64,000 bases of DNA, taken from positions 434,001 to 498,000 of the forward strand of contig JNJD01000006.1 of NCBI GenBank assembly GCA_000702685.1, read 5' to 3'. Source of the stretch: Lachnospiraceae bacterium AC2028. Its GTDB lineage: Bacteria; Bacillota; Clostridia; Lachnospirales; Lachnospiraceae. Under the pieces are notes generated by a model. The model searched no databases. It was not told where the DNA came from and worked only from the letters and a program-made list of their open reading frames with translations. Positions 27,384-36,642 of this stretch are shown piece by piece. The stretch's first letter is position 1. The number at the start of each line of letters is the position of its first letter. The position numbers and the translations under genes were made by a program.

Positions 27384-28676
27384 TCAGGCCCAGATGAACC
27401 ATACGAAGAGATATCCGGTCATTACCGCTGTAAGGGTAAAGGGCACACCTATCTTCATGAAGTCGCCGAAGCTGACTTCATATCCCGCTTTCCTGAGCAT
27501 TCCGACACCTGCGATATTGGCGGATGCACCGATGGGGGTGAGGTTTCCTCCGAGGGTAGCGCCTACGAGCAGTCCGAAGAAAAGGAAATATGGTTCGACT
27601 CCGAGCGTTGCGGCTACACTTCCGAGTATGGGAAGCATTGTGGCAACATAAGGTATATTATCAATAAATGCGGAAATTGCAACAGATCCCCATACAACTA
27701 TCGTAAAAAGAAGGAATTTATTGCTTCCTCCGGCACCTGCGATAAGTCCGGCAAGATCATCGATGACTCCCACATTGGTGATGCCTCCGATGACACAGAA
27801 CAGTCCGATGAGGAGAAGTACCATATCGATATCGAGGCTCTTGAAGGAATGCTTAAGTCCCACGGTATTCTTATGTATGAGCAGTTCTCCGATTATCGTG
27901 ATGACTGCACCGGTAATACAGATATATCCGTTGATCAGATCGGGAGTGTTCGGTATGAATGAAGCGATGATAAGTGCAAGGACGTATGCGATCATCATGA
28001 ATGAAGGGAACAGGTCCCTGACCTTCGTACGCTCCTCTGAGGAAACCGGTGCTTTCTCTTTTCTGAACATGAACATCATGATGGGAATGGTAAATAATGC
28101 TCCGAGCTCGGTTGCGAAGAACATTCCGAGCTTGCCGTTCATGACGAAGAAATCCGCAAAATTCATATTTGCTGCGCCCGCAAGCATAATGGAAGTGGTA
28201 TCGCCTACAAGAGTTGCGGCTCCCTGAAGGTTGGACGATACCGCTATGCATATGATCATTCCGACGGGTGATACGTTCAGTTTCTTGCAGATGACCATCG
28301 CAACGGGAGCAACCATAAGTACTGTTGCAACATTGTCGATGAATGCCGAGATCAGTCCCGAGAAAACGGACATAAGAACAGTCACCCACAGAATGTTGGG
28401 TGCGATCCTGAGCAGTGATTCGGCAATGACATTGGGCATCTTGGACTCGATGAAATAATCAACGATGATCATCGTACCCGAGATCATCAGTATGACATTC
28501 CAGTTGACCGCATGCGGTATGTCCGTTATATCAAGTATCTTAATGTCCGCTATCGGAAGCAGTGACAATACGACGAATATTGCCGCGGTGGTCAGCGCGG
28601 TGATCGATCTTCTCTTGGGAAAAGCGATCATAAGAACGTACATTATCACGAATAGTACTATAGCTGTAATCTTCAC
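27384..28676 (-). CDS. ArsB/NhaD-type ion transporter (IT superfamily)
   Basis: 430 residues with about 11-12 hydrophobic segments. Two inverted halves each carry the ion-transporter hairpin signature: SAFIDNVATVLMVAPVAMVI and SAFIDNIPYVATMLPIL, with SSNLQGAATLVGDTTS and GGNLTPIGASANIAG after them. These are the features of ArsB/NhaD/CitM proteins. NhaD-type Na+/H+ exchange, a divalent-metal or an oxyanion substrate are all possible. Its ATG overlaps the stop of a DtxR-family regulator, pointing to a metal-linked role. No arsenic genes are nearby. Confidence 0.75.
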   Translation of the reverse strand: MKITAIVLFVIMYVLMIAFPKRRSITALTTAAIFVVLSLLPIADIKILDITDIPHAVNWNVILMISGTMIIVDYFIESKMPNVIAESLLRIAPNILWVTVLMSVFSGLISAFIDNVATVLMVAPVAMVICKKLNVSPVGMIICIAVSSNLQGAATLVGDTTSIMLAGAANMNFADFFVMNGKLGMFFATELGALFTIPIMMFMFRKEKAPVSSEERTKVRDLFPSFMMIAYVLALIIASFIPNTPDLINGYICITGAVITIIGELLIHKNTVGLKHSFKSLDIDMVLLLIGLFCVIGGITNVGVIDDLAGLIAGAGGSNKFLLFTIVVWGSVAISAFIDNIPYVATMLPILGSVAATLGVEPYFLFFGLLVGATLGGNLTPIGASANIAGVGMLRKAGYEVSFGDFMKIGVPFTLTAVMTGYLFVWFIWA

Positions 28677-29092
28677 TTTGAATTACTCCTTACATAATGA
28701 TCACAGCCCGCACAGTTTACACGCTGCGACATAACATATTTTTTGATTGCTTCAAAACTTTCCCCGGATATATCGTGCTCAACCTTGCACGCATCATCGG
28801 ATGCGGTCTTCGGATCTATCCCGATATTAACGAACCATTCGGTAAGCAGGGTGTGTCTTTCGTAGATCATCTCCGCTATCTGTTTTCCGGTCTCCGTCAG
28901 GGAGATGTAGCCTTCCTCAGAAACCGTTATATGACCCTTTTCACGAAGATTTTTCATTGCAACGCTTACGGATGACTTTTTGAAGCCCATCTCATTGGCG
29001 ACATCAACGCCGCGTACAACGGGCTTTTTCTCTCCGAGTATCAGGATGCATTCGAGATAATCTTCGATCGATTCATTTTTACGAAGTGCCAT
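28673..29092 (-). CDS. DtxR-family metal-dependent repressor
   Basis: 139 residues from the ATG at 29092 (GGAAGG before it; a longer frame to 29107 starts with TTG). Winged helix RGVDVANEMGFKKSSVSVAM, then the dimerisation/metal domain with ACKVEHDIS, where Cys, Glu and His match the primary metal ligands of the iron-type DtxR/IdeR rather than the MntR set. It ends with a Cys-rich tail (VNCAGCDHYV). It overlaps the transporter gene by 4 nt and begins 15 nt after atpC, so it may regulate or be read from the ATPase operon. Confidence 0.88.
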   Translation of the reverse strand: MALRKNESIEDYLECILILGEKKPVVRGVDVANEMGFKKSSVSVAMKNLREKGHITVSEEGYISLTETGKQIAEMIYERHTLLTEWFVNIGIDPKTASDDACKVEHDISGESFEAIKKYVMSQRVNCAGCDHYVRSNSK

Positions 29093-29107
29093 TGTATTAC
29101 CTTCCAA

Positions 29108-29548
29108 TCATTTATCGCCGAAGCCGTCATACGGATTGCCCGCTTCGGAAAGCCTGAGCATCGCCCTGGCCATTGATGCCCTGCTCTGTTCGTATTCCTG
29201 TATGCTCTGATCCTGCCTGAGCTGTTCCATCGCCCTTTTGAGCGCACGCTCCGCTCTAGCCCTGTCGATATCCTCGGGAGCTTCGATCGAATCCACGAGC
29301 ACCATCACGATATCTTTTCTGATGTTGACAAGGCCCAGTCCGTTCACTCCGGTCTTTAAGATCTCTTTCCCTTCATCATTCACGAACCTGAATCTGAGCA
29401 CGCCTTCCTTAAGCGCCATGACGACCGGCTCATGATGGGCAAGTATCTGGTACGAACCGTCGAATGCGGGAATGCTCAGCGATATCGCCTCGCCGTCAAA
29501 AAAGGTTTTGTCGGCAGCTAAGATTTTAAGATGAAAGCCCTCACTCAT
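29108..29548 (-). CDS. atpC: ATP synthase epsilon subunit
   Basis: 146 residues. N-terminal beta sandwich (FHLKILAADKTFFDGEAISL, FDGSYQILAHHEPVVMALKEG) and a C-terminal helical pair (RARAERALKRAMEQL). Part of the central stalk and an inhibitor of ATP hydrolysis. Starts 2 nt after atpD. Confidence 0.93.
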   Translation of the reverse strand: MSEGFHLKILAADKTFFDGEAISLSIPAFDGSYQILAHHEPVVMALKEGVLRFRFVNDEGKEILKTGVNGLGLVNIRKDIVMVLVDSIEAPEDIDRARAERALKRAMEQLRQDQSIQEYEQSRASMARAMLRLSEAGNPYDGFGDK

Positions 29549-29550
29549 GC

Positions 29551-31861
<2,311 letters not shown>

Positions 31862-31862
31862 A

Positions 31863-33638
31863 TCATTCCCTGATGCTCATAAACTCCGTTAACTGCTGCT
31901 GTGCTTTCTGGACAAGGAAATATTTCTCATCATCGTTGAGAACTCCGCCGAGTTCAATATCGTGTACCACAGTCTGTTCCTCGGCATGGACCTTCCCGAG
32001 GTAACCCTCCATGAATTCCCTTACTCTTTCAACGGGAACCGTATCGATCACACCGGAATTGACCACGGTAAGGGTAATGACCTGATCTGCCATGGATCTG
32101 GGATGTCCGATGGGCTGCTTTAACAGTTCCATCAAAAGTCTTCCGTGACGCAGCTGGTTCTTGGTCGCATCATCAAGATCTGAAGAGAACTGGGTAAACA
32201 CTTCCATCTCCCTGTACTGCGCAAGATCTATTCTGACGGAACCGGCCGCTTTCTTCATGGACTTGGTCTGAGCCGCACCGCCGACTCTCGATACCGAAAG
32301 ACCTACATTGACCGCGGGTCTGAATCCGAGGAAAAAGAGATCGCTCTCCAGATAGATCTGTCCGTCCGTTATCGATATGACATTGGTCGGGATATATGCC
32401 GATACATCTCCGGCCTGGGTTTCGATTATGGGAAGTGCCGTGATCGAACCTCCGCCGAGATCGTCGGAAAGTCTCGCACTTCTTTCGAGAAGTCTCGAGT
32501 GGAGATAGAATACGTCTCCGGGATAAGCCTCTCTTCCGGGGCTTCTCTCAAGAAGGAGTGACAGAGCCCTGTAAGCGACCGCATGCTTGGAAAGATCATC
32601 ATAAACGATCAGCACGTCCTCACCCTTGTGCATGAAAAACTCCGCTATCGAAGTTCCGGAATAAGGCGCAATATACTGAAGGGGTGCGGGATCCGAGGCA
32701 GTTGACGATACAACTACCGTATAGTCCATTGCACCTGCATTCTTCAGGGTATTAACAAGTTTTGCTATGGTGGAAGCTTTCTGACCTATCGCAACATATA
32801 TGCACTTAACTCCCTTGCCCTTCTGATTGATGATGGTATCAAGAGCAATGGAGGTTTTTCCCGTCTGTCTGTCGCCTATGATAAGTTCCCTCTGGCCGCG
32901 TCCGATCGGGAACATTGAATCGATCGAAAGTATTCCGGTCTCAAGAGGGGTATCGACAGGCTGCCTGGAAGTTATGGAAGGAGCCGGACTTTCTATCGGC
33001 CTGTATCCTTCGGCTTCAAAAGGTCTTCCGCCGTCTATGGGTTCTCCGAGTGCATTGAGTACTCTTCCGATGAGCGCATCTCCGACGGGAACACCCGCTC
33101 TCATTCCGGTACGCGCAACTTCATCCCATACTCTTATCTCGCTGTCCTTGCCGAAAAGAATGACACCGCAGTCTTCCCTTCTGATGTCCTGTACCATTCC
33201 CTTGACACCGCTTGAAAAGATGAGTATCTCGCCGTATTCGGCACGCTCAAGTCCCTTGACTCTCGCTATTCCGTCACCTGCGGAGGTGACATATCCGGAT
33301 CTTCTGAAACGGGCAGCAAGCCTGAATTCTTCCGTTGTTGTTCTGAGGATGGAAATGACATCCTCATCGGCTCCGACGTTTTTCCTGATGCTCTGAAGCT
33401 TTTCGTTGAACTGGCCGAGTCTTCCTCTTGTACTCCAGTTATAAACTTCATTGCCGCATTTAAGAATGAATCCTCCGCCGAGAGATTCGTCATATTCAAC
33501 GGAGAAATCAATATCTTCCGCACTGCGGTCATCATTTACATATTTTCCGAGAACAAAATTCCAGATTCCCTGAAGCTGTTCTTCACTGGGGGCGGTCACA
33601 TAATAAAGGACGACCTGAAATCCGGGTTTTTTACTCAT
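31863..33638 (-). CDS. atpA: ATP synthase alpha subunit fused to a delta C-terminal domain
   Basis: 591 residues, about 86 longer than usual. Residues 95-591 are a normal alpha subunit: Walker A GDRQTGKT at 255-262, [19 protein letters not shown] and [11 protein letters not shown] with the arginine finger. Residues 7-85 resemble the C-terminal domain of the delta (OSCP) subunit: [18 protein letters not shown], then [20 protein letters not shown] and RGRLGQF match the delta signature (LGG.....G...D.S.RGRL). No separate atpH is present, and only 14 nt separate atpF and this gene. The N-terminal delta domain is missing. In E. coli the alpha N-terminus binds that domain, so the fusion would join stator and hexamer covalently. 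The Met start has GGGG before it. Confidence 0.9.
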
Positions 33639-33652
33639 ACCCTTTATCCCCC

Positions 33653-34129
33653 TTACTTAGCCTGCTCCAGGAATCTGTCGTAAAGCTGTTTATCCATTTC
33701 TTCACTCTGGTCGGCAGTAACGATCCTCTCGGCAGCCTTGGCTACCATATCGGTGATCTCCTGATTGGCCTTGCGGAGTCTGAGCTGTCTTTCCTCCTCA
33801 GCTTCCTTCCTGGCCTGGGCGATGATCTTGTCGGATTCTTTCTTCGCCTGTTCCATCAGTCTGTCATATTCACCCGAAGCCTGATTGCGCGCTTCGGTAA
33901 AACGGCGTTCCTTCTCATTCTCAATATCTTGGATGGATTCGTCGTATTTCTGCTTGGTGGCAAGCGCTTCTTCATTCACCTTGTCGGCCTCGGCATATTT
34001 GTCCTCGACCTCCTGTCTTCTCTTATCAAGTATCTTGTGTACCGGCTTGATAAGAAAGATCTTCACGATGGCGAATAAAAGAAGAACATTTATGATGGTA
34101 AATACCAGATTAATGTCTATCCTGAGCAT
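33653..34129 (-). CDS. atpF: ATP synthase b subunit
   Basis: 158 residues. One N-terminal membrane helix ([20 protein letters not shown]) followed by a long charged helix, [20 protein letters not shown] and so on. It is the peripheral stalk. Length is normal and there is no delta extension, so the delta domain found on alpha is not duplicated here. Begins 15 nt after atpE. Confidence 0.94.
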
Positions 34130-34144
34130 TTTTTACCCCTCGAA

Positions 34145-34360
34145 TCAGCCCAAAAAGAGAATTATCATAACGCCTACAACGAACGCATAGATCGCAGTTG
34201 CCTCAGCAAGAGCTCCGCCCAGGATCAGAAGTTTCATGATCTTGGAATCCGCTTCGGGCTGACGCGCACATGCATCACATGCCTTGGCGGTTGCTATTCC
34301 GAGACTTACTCCCGCTCCCACACATCCGAGTGCCGCAATGCTTGCTCCAATTGCTACCAT
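34145..34360 (-). CDS. atpE: ATP synthase c subunit, proton type
   Basis: 71 residues, two membrane helices joined by ARQPEADS. The ion-binding carboxylate is Glu53 in GGALAEATAIYAF. Na+-driven rings carry Gln in helix 1 and Ser after the Glu (EST); here those positions are Leu20 and Ala54, so I predict proton coupling. RBS AAGGAGG. Forms the rotor ring. Confidence 0.95.
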   Translation of the reverse strand: MVAIGASIAALGCVGAGVSLGIATAKACDACARQPEADSKIMKLLILGGALAEATAIYAFVVGVMIILFLG

Positions 34361-34391: not shown

Positions 34392-35081
34392 TTATTCCAG
34401 AGCTTCTTTTATATACATACCTGTCAGGAATACGAATACATATGCCTGAAGGAGTCCGTCGAAAATATCGAAATACAGTGAAAAGGCTGCGGGGATGACC
34501 GCGGGCACGACGCATTTTAAAAGCTCCATGATGACGAATGCGCCGAGGACATTACCGAAAAGTCGCATGCACAGCGAAAGCGGTTTGATCCCGAGTTCAA
34601 GGATATTGATCGGAGTTACCAGCGCTACGGGCTGAGTGAATCCCTTGAGCCATCCTCCGAGATGCTTTTTCCTGATCGCTGCGACCTGCACAAGAATGAT
34701 GCTCATTACCGCAAGTGCGGCGGTGACGTTCAGATCCTTGGTGGGCGGCTTGAAGCCTATAAGTCCGATCATATTGGAAAGACCGATGAAGATCAGGACT
34801 GTAAGAAGATAGGGGATATATTCATGTCCCTCTTCTCCGACCATCGATCCTACAAGTTCCTCACCCTTTATGACGAGCCACTCCGCAAGCGCCTGCCTTC
34901 TGGATATGTTCTTCACCTTAAGTCCCGCGGTAAGAACAAGGCACAATATGAGTACTATGCCTATGACTATCCAGCTGACGACAACGGACTCGGAAACACC
35001 TATCGTATGTCCCGCTATCTCGACCGAGAAAACATCTTCAGTTTGCAGCTGTTCAAGGATTTCTTCAGCTATCCTTTCCAT
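34392..35081 (-). CDS. atpB: ATP synthase a subunit
   Basis: 229 residues, five to six membrane helices. The essential arginine is in LSLCMRLFGNVLGAFVIMELL (the RLFGN motif), and the segment GFKPPTKDLNVTAALAV is typical of clostridial a subunits. It forms the ion half-channels against the c ring. It lies 3 nt after the gene at 35085, so the ATPase operon appears to begin with that gene; no atpI is present. Confidence 0.94.
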   Translation of the reverse strand: MERIAEEILEQLQTEDVFSVEIAGHTIGVSESVVVSWIVIGIVLILCLVLTAGLKVKNISRRQALAEWLVIKGEELVGSMVGEEGHEYIPYLLTVLIFIGLSNMIGLIGFKPPTKDLNVTAALAVMSIILVQVAAIRKKHLGGWLKGFTQPVALVTPINILELGIKPLSLCMRLFGNVLGAFVIMELLKCVVPAVIPAAFSLYFDIFDGLLQAYVFVFLTGMYIKEALE

Positions 35082-35084
35082 TCC

Positions 35085-36308
35085 CTACACTCCCTCGGAC
35101 TGTATCTTTTTGTTTCTTTTCGTGCTCTTTTTACGGATCTGCTTTTCTTCTATCCTGCCCTGGACGGACTCGATCCACTTATCGACGCCTTCGACAAATT
35201 CGCTCCATTCCGCACGGGCTTCGCTCTTTGCCTGCACTCCGGTATCCCTGATAAAAGCATTGATGACCGTGCGGAGGAATTCCTTCTCCTTATCATCCAT
35301 GCCCTCGTATCCGTCGATCATCTGCCTCATGCTCTTGACGGGGGCGACACCCATGCTGACAAGGTCATTGCTGTCGCACGCATCGGCAACACCGAAAACA
35401 ATGTCGATGAATCTGGCGCGGTCTTCCATATCAATCTTGGAAAGCCAGTCCCTGAGGGCACTGCTTATGATGACTGCGCTCTTTTTTAGGCTCTTCAGAT
35501 GGTCGAGATCGATATCCTTTACGACCCATGTATAGGGATCGTGCTGGCCGACGCCCTTTCCGCTGCTCTTTACCACGGAATAAATGTCATCGGTCTCAAA
35601 GAGCATACCGACGAGAGAGCTCTGGGGGACACATTTGATTATCCTGTCCCTGATGCTCCCGTATCCTATCTTCTCTCTGAATTCTTCCCTGACGGCGGGT
35701 CCGTCAAAAGAATACACGTTCATTATACGCTTTTTTATCGGATCTGGCACTAATGACGATGCATATACGGACAAAAGTCCGCCCTTGGAATGACCGCCTA
35801 CGTAAAAATCGCCGGAAAGCAGTCCCGAAGCCGTTTTCAGGTATCCAACGGCCTCTTTTTCACCGGGGATCCTGTCCATAATGGAAAGATTGAAATCCTC
35901 CTTCCATCCGACAACGTTCTCATCGGTGCCCCTGAATGCGACAAAGCCCGTTCCTCCGGGAAGTTTATAGGTAACGGCGGAAAACTGGATATCGCGCTTT
36001 GTGTCGACGATATTCACATAATGAGCCAGCGACAGACCGCCGAAGCGCTTGCCTGAGACCATCAGCGCAAAAAGCTTCCTGTTCACCTTCTCATACCTGG
36101 TATCGGTGAAAAGCCTGTCAAAATCGGTATTCTTTTTTATTGACTTAAGGGTAATAAAAGAATCGCTTTCGCCCGGCCCGGGAACCAGGCCGTCGAATTT
36201 CAGATACGCAAACTGGGAAAGAATAAGAGCATCGACTTCTCCGAAGGGAAGCCGTTCAAAGGTTTTGTCACCGAATTTTTCAAGATAATCAAGAATGTTA
36301 TCGCTCAT
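35085..36308 (-). CDS. Predicted alpha/beta-hydrolase of the Mbeg1/DUF2974 type, first gene of the ATPase operon
   Basis: 407 residues. The middle has lipase-like features: FVAFRGTDENVVGWKEDFNL followed by DFYVGGHSKGGLLSVYAS, where GHSKG is the nucleophile elbow (GxSxG), and later FSFDGPA. These resemble Mbeg1-like/DUF2974 proteins common in gut Firmicutes. No signal peptide, so it appears cytosolic. Likely catalytic Ser is in GHSKGG; the Asp and His partners are not certain. The C-terminus is highly basic (KKSTKRNKKIQ). It ends 3 nt before atpB, so it is translated along with the ATPase genes, which is unusual. Confidence 0.7.
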   Translation of the reverse strand: MSDNILDYLEKFGDKTFERLPFGEVDALILSQFAYLKFDGLVPGPGESDSFITLKSIKKNTDFDRLFTDTRYEKVNRKLFALMVSGKRFGGLSLAHYVNIVDTKRDIQFSAVTYKLPGGTGFVAFRGTDENVVGWKEDFNLSIMDRIPGEKEAVGYLKTASGLLSGDFYVGGHSKGGLLSVYASSLVPDPIKKRIMNVYSFDGPAVREEFREKIGYGSIRDRIIKCVPQSSLVGMLFETDDIYSVVKSSGKGVGQHDPYTWVVKDIDLDHLKSLKKSAVIISSALRDWLSKIDMEDRARFIDIVFGVADACDSNDLVSMGVAPVKSMRQMIDGYEGMDDKEKEFLRTVINAFIRDTGVQAKSEARAEWSEFVEGVDKWIESVQGRIEEKQIRKKSTKRNKKIQSEGV

Positions 36309-36345: not shown

Positions 36346-36351
36346 ATTATA
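36346..36351 (-). promoter_or_regulatory. TATAAT -10 for the ATPase operon, overlapping a plus-strand -10
   Basis: TATAAT on the minus strand lies about 38 nt before the ATG at 36308 with no clear -35. The same bases read TATTAT/TATACA on the plus strand, 7-12 nt before the small membrane gene at 36358, so divergent promoters seem to share one box. Confidence 0.45.
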
Positions 36352-36357
36352 CAATCT

Positions 36358-36642
36358 ATGGAAAAAAAATGGACTCCCAAGAGAATATGTGCTCTGCTGA
36401 TAGTCATCCTTCTGGTACTGATGTATGTGGGTACGCTCGTCGTCGCGATCGTCTGGCCGGCAAATGCATCAAAGCTGTTTGCGATGTGCATCTTCGCAAC
36501 GGTATGCATTCCCATCTGCGCTTACTTAGGCATATGGCTCTATACCAAGGCTACCGGCAAGAAGACCATCGCCAGTGTTCCGGAAGTCCCCGGAGAAGAT
36601 GAGGCAAGGAACGCGTCAGATATTGACTCCGAGGCTCCTTAG
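36358..36642 (+). CDS. Small two-helix membrane protein, possibly leaderless
   Basis: 94 residues from the ATG at 36358. Two hydrophobic segments (ICALLIVILLVLMYVGTLVV and LFAMCIFATVCIPICAYLGI) and an acidic tail (EDEARNASDIDSEAP). I do not recognise a family. No ribosome site lies 5-12 nt before the ATG; instead a TATACA box ends 4 nt before it, which fits a leaderless mRNA. A longer frame to 36295 would begin on the opposite gene's start and is less likely. Its end overlaps the convergent HAD gene by 27 nt. Confidence 0.6.
   Translation: MEKKWTPKRICALLIVILLVLMYVGTLVVAIVWPANASKLFAMCIFATVCIPICAYLGIWLYTKATGKKTIASVPEVPGEDEARNASDIDSEAP

Follow-up and report, generated by a model that had tools for sequence, protein, structure and literature searches.

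A delta C-terminal domain fused to the alpha subunit in a second F-type ATP synthase of a Lachnospiraceae bacterium

As judged from sequence comparisons, the AtpA protein encoded in a 64,000-nucleotide stretch of the Lachnospiraceae bacterium AC2028 genome (the window) is a real fusion, in which the C-terminal domain of the delta subunit is joined to a complete alpha subunit. The best explanation of this arrangement, to which we give a probability of roughly 0.58, is that a second, functional F-type ATP synthase is made from the window operon, in which the stator anchor would be built into alpha and one to three peripheral stalks would be possible.

The fused atpA gene, of 591 aa, is located on the minus strand at 31863..33638, and the open reading frame, strand, coordinates and length given for it in an earlier sequence-only reading were all correct. 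The surrounding operon, also on the minus strand, contains a complete F-type ATP synthase set of a, c, b, alpha, gamma, beta and epsilon subunits (7 of 7 proteins by Pfam and NCBIfam) in the order B-E-F-(delta-alpha)-G-D-C, without atpH. It consists of atpB (34392..35081; a subunit, 229 aa, PF00119), atpE (34145..34360; c subunit, 71 aa, PF00137, without the glutamine ligand of Na+ enzymes), atpF (33653..34129; b subunit, 158 aa, PF00430 with E 3e-15), which is the expected partner of the delta C-terminal domain, the fused atpA, atpG (30938..31861; gamma subunit, 307 aa, PF00231 and TIGR01146), atpD (29551..30954; beta subunit, 467 aa, TIGR01039) and atpC (29108..29548; epsilon subunit, 146 aa, PF02823 and PF00401). 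The a and b subunits are encoded by one gene each. Between atpF and atpA, no separate delta gene was found in the window, and none can fit there, because the gap measured is 14 nt, exactly as had been claimed together with a normal length for AtpF.

Several other genes lie next to the operon. A Mbeg1-like gene of 407 aa (35085-36308) on the same strand as atpB ends 3 nt upstream of it, and owing to this distance and orientation it may share a transcript with the ATP synthase genes. Immediately past atpC, positions 27384-29107 of the same strand encode a DtxR-type metal-dependent repressor and a CitMHS/ArsB-like ion transporter. A small hydrophobic open reading frame with no Pfam match is located divergently on the plus strand at 36346-36642; it was rejected as a partner of the fused operon, being present in only 3 of 82 loci (the window, L133 and L090).

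Within AtpA, the delta/OSCP C-terminal domain occupies residues 7-85 approximately (33384..33620, minus strand). It is followed by the kept N-terminal helix of alpha at approximately residues 92-105 (33324..33365, minus strand), recognized by alignment with separate alphas, and by the alpha body (31866..33302, minus strand), which comprises the barrel, the nucleotide-binding domain and the C-terminal domain (PF02874, PF00006 and PF00306). Residues 92-574 match the alpha equivalog model TIGR00962 far above its cut-off (711.8 versus 484.45 bits). The Walker A motif is at residue 255 in the fused AtpA and at residue 169 in the genome's other, ordinary alpha, which reproduces the claimed offset of 86. 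The N-terminal segment of alpha is a helix whose usual role is to bind delta, and the alignment showed that the alpha stretch meeting the delta N-terminal domain is still kept in the short fusions. The delta N-terminal domain is absent from the fused AtpA and from the window operon.

The assignment of the extension to delta was assessed with profiles. Residues 40-81 of AtpA correspond to positions 131-172 of Pfam OSCP (PF00213) with an E value of 3.3e-4 and 21.2 bits (cut-off 22.3), and the same match reached 22.6 bits in the search of the whole genome. Lying around the cut-off, the OSCP check that had been proposed was thus marginal for the window AtpA as a single sequence; scores below the cut-off were also observed in several short relatives (G213 14.7, G034 19.1 and G189 20.9 bits). 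A profile made from the alignment of 63 fused N-termini (A1) matched solved delta subunits over the C-terminal domain, at residues 107-176 of Bacillus PS3 delta (E 1.8e-8) and residues 104-176 of 5t4o_L (E 1.3e-7), which we take to be E. coli delta. These profile matches identify the extension as a delta C-terminal domain, as the sequence-only reading had suggested. No in-frame ATG, GTG or TTG is present between residues 15 and 147 of AtpA, and the ribosome-binding site at its actual start is strong (-10.2 kcal/mol), so all alphas should carry the delta domain, and the proposal that it sits on all three alphas of F1 should hold.

The OSCP search of the genome (2.77 Mb, 14 contigs, 99.6% complete) found two places, namely the fused AtpA and a complete delta on contig 12 (142.5 bits, OSCP positions 1-172, open reading frame of 182 aa). 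The earlier statement that atpH is missing is therefore right for the window operon and wrong for the genome; the complete gene elsewhere disposes of that statement and leaves the fusion untouched. The operon on contig 12 contains atpZ- and atpI-like genes followed by B, E, F, H, alpha (505 aa), G, D and C; the organism thus possesses both a fused and an ordinary F-type ATP synthase. A phmmer search with the atpI- and atpZ-like proteins of the latter (L003) gave no match in the fused operons that were fetched, and the fused and ordinary alphas were split by a supported branch in the tree.

To what extent relatives share the fusion was examined at the levels of genus and family. In the genus of the window, a full-length delta frame was found in 29 of 31 genomes and a C-terminal OSCP match in a separate frame in 28 of 31, with 26 of the 28 frames at least 591 aa long; the window, L132 and L133 were read as genes and the other 25 of the 28 were taken from the match table, where four fused matches (G002, G005, G009 and G021) run through stop codons presumed to lie upstream of the fused gene. 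In the family, represented by one genome per genus, 109 of 298 genomes matched AtpA residues 1-113 at E 0.001. We fetched 60 family loci with long frames, leaving out short frames that are possibly cut fused genes (e.g., G119), and all 60 were read as fused; with the window, at least 61 of the 298 genera carry the fusion. None of the 60 operons contained atpH in a test that overlooked one delta (L119) among the 18 unfused loci. These unfused sister loci (L114-L131), which have a separate delta and an alpha of the window type, were hand-picked and not a random sample. Gene order in the 60 loci is again B-E-F-(delta-alpha)-G-D-C, except that b is inside the fusion in L090, beta is in two pieces in L060 and L064 starts after atpB. 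Counting the window, L132 and L133, 62 fused loci have atpF as a gene of its own, and in these it is never more than 78 nt away from the fusion.

Three architectures were observed among the 60 loci: 20 full delta-alpha fusions, 39 short fusions that lack the delta N-terminal domain as in the window, and one b-delta-alpha fusion. The full fusions (L054-L073) are 669-756 aa long and have an OSCP match starting at position 5-27, which in L057 and L059 was also seen by Pfam, and the short forms are 576-642 aa long. The idea that the fusion dispenses with the delta N-terminal domain thus applies to the window operon, where the domain is absent, and not to the 20 of 60 fused relatives that keep it. 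The b-delta(C-terminal domain)-alpha protein of L090 (3656-5992) has 778 aa, with PF00430 at residues 9-137 and OSCP at 131-249, followed by alpha, and its genome gave no further match to PF00430 (E 0.001) or OSCP (E 0.05). This gene rests on a single assembly, since its genus has only one genome in the set. At the alpha start of L090, an in-frame ATG is served by a fair ribosome-binding site (-7.8 kcal/mol), so that a free alpha is possible there.

An OSCP search at E 0.05 covered 66 genomes (60 fused and six found unfused). A separate delta was found besides the fusion in 36 of the 60 fused genomes, in G105 as two pieces on two contigs, and none was found in the other 24, of which 16 are at least 95% complete; in these 24 genomes, because of the missing separate delta, the fused domain should serve as delta. 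The short form is carried by Lachnospiraceae bacterium P6A3, whose record is not marked as a metagenome assembly. The full form occurs in Pseudobutyrivibrio ruminis DSM 9787, Agathobacter ruminis JK623, Oribacterium sinus DSM 17245 and the complete genome of Lachnospiraceae bacterium GAM79. Fused and separate delta were present together in all eight named genomes tested. The best 80 named loci, a biased set since they were ranked by similarity to the fused query, comprise 36 short forms, 42 full forms, one full form by eye (L186, script-scored as 'long', which reads as a full-length delta-alpha fusion with an early frame start) and one cut locus (L156), which was left out of the named count; L176 borders the short and full classes.

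The c subunits allow the ion type to be predicted. Na+ ligands in c are Gln/Glu32 and Ser/Thr66 (PMC2359735). The window c subunit has Leu and Glu-Ala-Thr at these places, which departs from the sodium-type set, and the c subunit of the ordinary operon in the same genome has Gln and Glu-Thr-Thr, as do the 18 c genes found in 20 other ordinary loci of the genus. The sodium glutamine ligand was found in c of 0 of 63 fused operons, and in none of the 19 c genes of the unfused sisters (18 loci). Under the rule of PMC2359735, the fused enzyme is predicted to be proton-driven and the ordinary enzyme sodium-capable. Ion type appears to be unlinked to the fusion, as the glutamine is missing from c of the unfused sister operons too. 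The short fusions L225, L226 and L228, which are outside the family, have a c subunit with the sodium glutamine.

Some c subunits were unusual in length or number. In 18 short-fusion operons (L076, L081, L084, L086, L087, L091-L093, L096, L099, L101, L102, L105-L108, L111 and L112), the c subunit as read has 111-150 aa, begins with an extension that resembles a signal peptide and contains the motif ETA, ETL or ETV; the a subunits of the same operons were read as 264-393 aa. The unfused sister operon L115 contains two tandem c-subunit genes.

To follow the history of the fusion, we analysed selection and the phylogeny of alpha. In eight close relatives (28 pairs), dN/dS of the delta part was 0.03-0.10 in 17 pairs and 0 in one, and was not computable in 10 because dS was too large; in many of the pairs that could be computed dS was above 1.5, so these values are rough. 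The corresponding dN/dS of alpha was 0.01-0.05. The codon comparison thus indicates that the delta part is under purifying selection. A first tree, built by a quick method from 86 rows of alpha-body sequence (L128 was left out as its alpha is cut at a contig end), mixed the architectures, and 35 of its 83 inner branches were weak. Forcing all short forms, together with L090, into one clade was 117 log units worse (p-AU 0.012), and a single origin of the short form was rejected on this quick tree; the free tree used in the comparison was 37 log units below a tree found later. All fused forms as one clade were not rejected (p-AU 0.78), and this constraint beat the tree of the free search. The simplest reading is one fusion followed by several losses of the delta N-terminal domain, in which separate delta and alpha would have given rise to a full delta-alpha fusion, and this in turn to short forms by repeated loss.

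A wider search of 398 genomes found, among the matches listed, at least six genomes outside the family with clean long frames, of which six were read; G519, with a 246-aa frame across the junction near a contig end, was left out of these. All six carry a short fusion, and no atpH was found in their fused operons. One of them, L223, has an alpha of the window-group type, and the other five (L224, L225, L226, L227 and L228, from three families, with identical alphas in L226 and L228) have an ordinary-type alpha with a short fusion. In a second tree (36 rows, with L229 and L250 left out and 10 of the 19 separate-delta control loci giving no alpha frame by motif), L224-L228 grouped with the separate-delta alphas and were divided from the window group by a fully supported branch. 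This placement suggests two or more separate origins of the short form. The fused OSCP match was the only one in five of the six genomes, including the single-contig genome G348, which had no OSCP match beyond the fusion, and G602 also has a separate delta.

Fusions of stator subunits are known from other systems. In the mycobacterial b-delta protein, delta is joined to b and alpha is free; this is likewise a stator fusion with delta, and its match to A1 was weak (7jg5 chain d, E 0.0011). The window was rejected as an enzyme of this type, its AtpF having 158 aa and scoring 29.8 bits on NF009961 against a cut-off of 328. N-ATPases have no delta gene in their operon, are often the second F-ATPase of a cell and differ in gene order. 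This identity was also rejected for the window, whose alpha scored 594.1 bits on TIGR03324 versus a cut-off of 750.5; moreover, the window has a delta C-terminal domain in alpha, whereas N-ATPases are described as lacking delta altogether (PMC5706428).

The closest counterpart is an engineered enzyme. In known F-type synthases a single peripheral stalk goes with a single a subunit, and the H+/ATP ratio varies among species with the size of the c-ring (PMC12229609). Ueno et al. (2025) argued that the delta N-terminal domain, located on the threefold axis of F1, permits one stalk only, and in the enzyme of Bacillus PS3 they deleted this domain and fused the remainder of delta to alpha (PMC12229609). 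The product carried up to three b2 stalks with an a subunit each, two on average, with three-stalk particles rare and single-stalk particles also seen, and its H+/ATP ratio was 5.8 compared with 3.0 in the wild type (PMC12229609). The solved chain closest to AtpA across the junction is 9jc1_I ('delta subunit, alpha subunit', 580 aa). AtpA 47-200 aligns without gaps to its residues 39-192 (E 1.6e-23), and AtpA 47-546 to 39-538, of equal length on both sides. We infer that 9jc1_I is the engineered chain of Ueno et al., since its delta letters equal PS3 delta wherever both are shown.

The window fusion resembles the engineered PS3 FoF1 in having the delta C-terminal domain before alpha and lacking the delta N-terminal domain, so that the question whether the fusion changes stator geometry or leaves spare copies, raised by the sequence-only reading, was apt, given that an enzyme of like design makes one to three stalks (PMC12229609). 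The construct contained no separate delta, and the window operon likewise has none; the full delta in the genome of the window lies in the other operon. The two differ in that the engineered enzyme is a laboratory product that lacks the epsilon C-terminal domain and whose stalk number and H+/ATP ratio were measured, whereas the window fusion is natural and its epsilon is complete. Natural delta-alpha fusions without the delta N-terminal domain were named in the same paper for Acidaminococcus fermentans and for UniProt G4Q3K6 and A0A1I2C5T3, and its Discussion proposes multi-stalk enzymes for them (PMC12229609). By its description, the Acidaminococcus fermentans fusion is like that of the window. 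The earlier statement that no delta-alpha fusion was known has thus been overtaken by one engineered and one named natural case of 2025 (PMC12229609).

If the window enzyme works as the engineered one does, each of the three alphas would put one delta C-terminal domain on top of F1, where every such domain could hold a b dimer by its tip, and every b dimer in turn one a subunit. Without a delta N-terminal domain on the threefold axis, one to three stalks and one to three a subunits could then be accommodated, and on our analysis the enzyme probably has more than one stalk. More ions would be used per ATP, which may allow ATP to be made at low proton-motive force, and running backwards the enzyme would move more protons per ATP. 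As predicted from the c subunits, the two enzymes of the cell could act as a low gear (protons, fused) and a high gear (sodium, ordinary). Counting against the multi-stalk reading are the alpha stretch facing the delta N-terminal domain, which the short forms retain, the ordinary delta carried by the genome of the window and by all eight named genomes, and the scarcity of three-stalk particles in the engineered enzyme. We would give even odds to the most far-reaching version, in which this is a natural multi-stalk synthase whose single rotor serves as many as three b dimers and as many a subunits, with two to three times the protons per ATP of a one-stalk enzyme at the same c-ring, operating beside a sodium-type single-stalk enzyme, in which the repeated loss of the N-terminal domain is a stalk switch reached separately elsewhere, and in which L090 locks three stalks with its three b chains.

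A tentative alternative, doubtful but to be taken seriously, is that only one of the three domains binds a b dimer, with a and b limiting or geometry restrictive, so that two domains stay idle and the fusion merely secures the supply of delta and replaces a weak contact. It would account for the 20 of 60 fused relatives that keep the N-terminal domain, which by the argument of Ueno et al. implies a one-stalk state; by the same argument, the three N-terminal domains of a full-length fusion cannot all occupy the threefold axis. A multi-stalk function cannot explain the whole fusion family for the same 20 relatives. The ordinary gene order with single a and b genes is also consistent with one stalk, as are the single-stalk particles of the engineered enzyme (PMC12229609). 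Purifying selection says little about idle copies, because one gene yields all three. What speaks against the single stalk is that the repeated loss of the N-terminal domain, together with a separate short form elsewhere, suggests that loss was favoured.

The working synthase with its anchor in alpha was weighed against three further explanations. Hybrid complexes, in which the fused alpha is combined with ordinary delta or diluted by ordinary alphas to give one stalk, are improbable: both deltas do occur in the genus (29 of 31 genomes with the full-length and 28 of 31 with the fused one) and in all eight named genomes, but no separate delta was found in 24 of the 60 fused genomes and a supported tree branch divides the two alphas. 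Slightly less credible still is that a protease or an internal start frees alpha, leaving a mature enzyme that is ordinary except for the missing delta N-terminal domain. An in-frame start codon lies near the junction in 37 of 63 fused genes, a few of them with fair to strong sites (L104 -12.7, L107 and L075 -10.0, L056 -8.1 and L090 -7.8 kcal/mol), but the window has none at residues 15-147, and -6 kcal/mol was reached by 24% of the best sites in the 37 loci versus 21% of 860 in-alpha start codons and 66% of 189 atpF, atpG and atpD starts; an internal start for a free alpha was rejected in the window and is unsupported across the fusion family. An error of sequencing or assembly, or decay of the gene, for which the marginal OSCP match of the window might be adduced, is in our view already refuted by the genus counts (at least 61 of 298 genera when the full, short and b-fused forms are added up, and the P6A3 record), besides the purifying selection and the complete operon, and its likelihood is negligible.

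A trimmed delta-alpha fusion is already in print for another species (PMC12229609), and we found no natural fusion shown to be multi-stalk in the open-licence literature searched. As far as that literature goes, the spread of the fusion through one family, the full-length delta-alpha intermediates and the repeated trimming are new, and so are the b-delta-alpha form and the presence of a fused enzyme alongside an ordinary one of sodium type; no mention of full-length delta-alpha or b-delta-alpha forms was found in the Discussion of PMC12229609. The authors of that paper asked whether nature broke the one-stalk rule (PMC12229609). The family provides a large natural set for this question, with full-length, trimmed and b-fused forms in at least 61 genera, unfused sisters and named strains, and because the N-terminal domain was lost repeatedly, forms with and without it can be compared in pairs, so that the natural existence of multi-stalk ATP synthases is now directly testable. 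The layout of the window enzyme matches the engineers' design for multiple stalks and a higher proton-to-ATP ratio, and machines of this sort may already exist in nature; for fermenters whose proton-motive force is weak, a proton-driven enzyme that passes many ions per ATP would be well suited.
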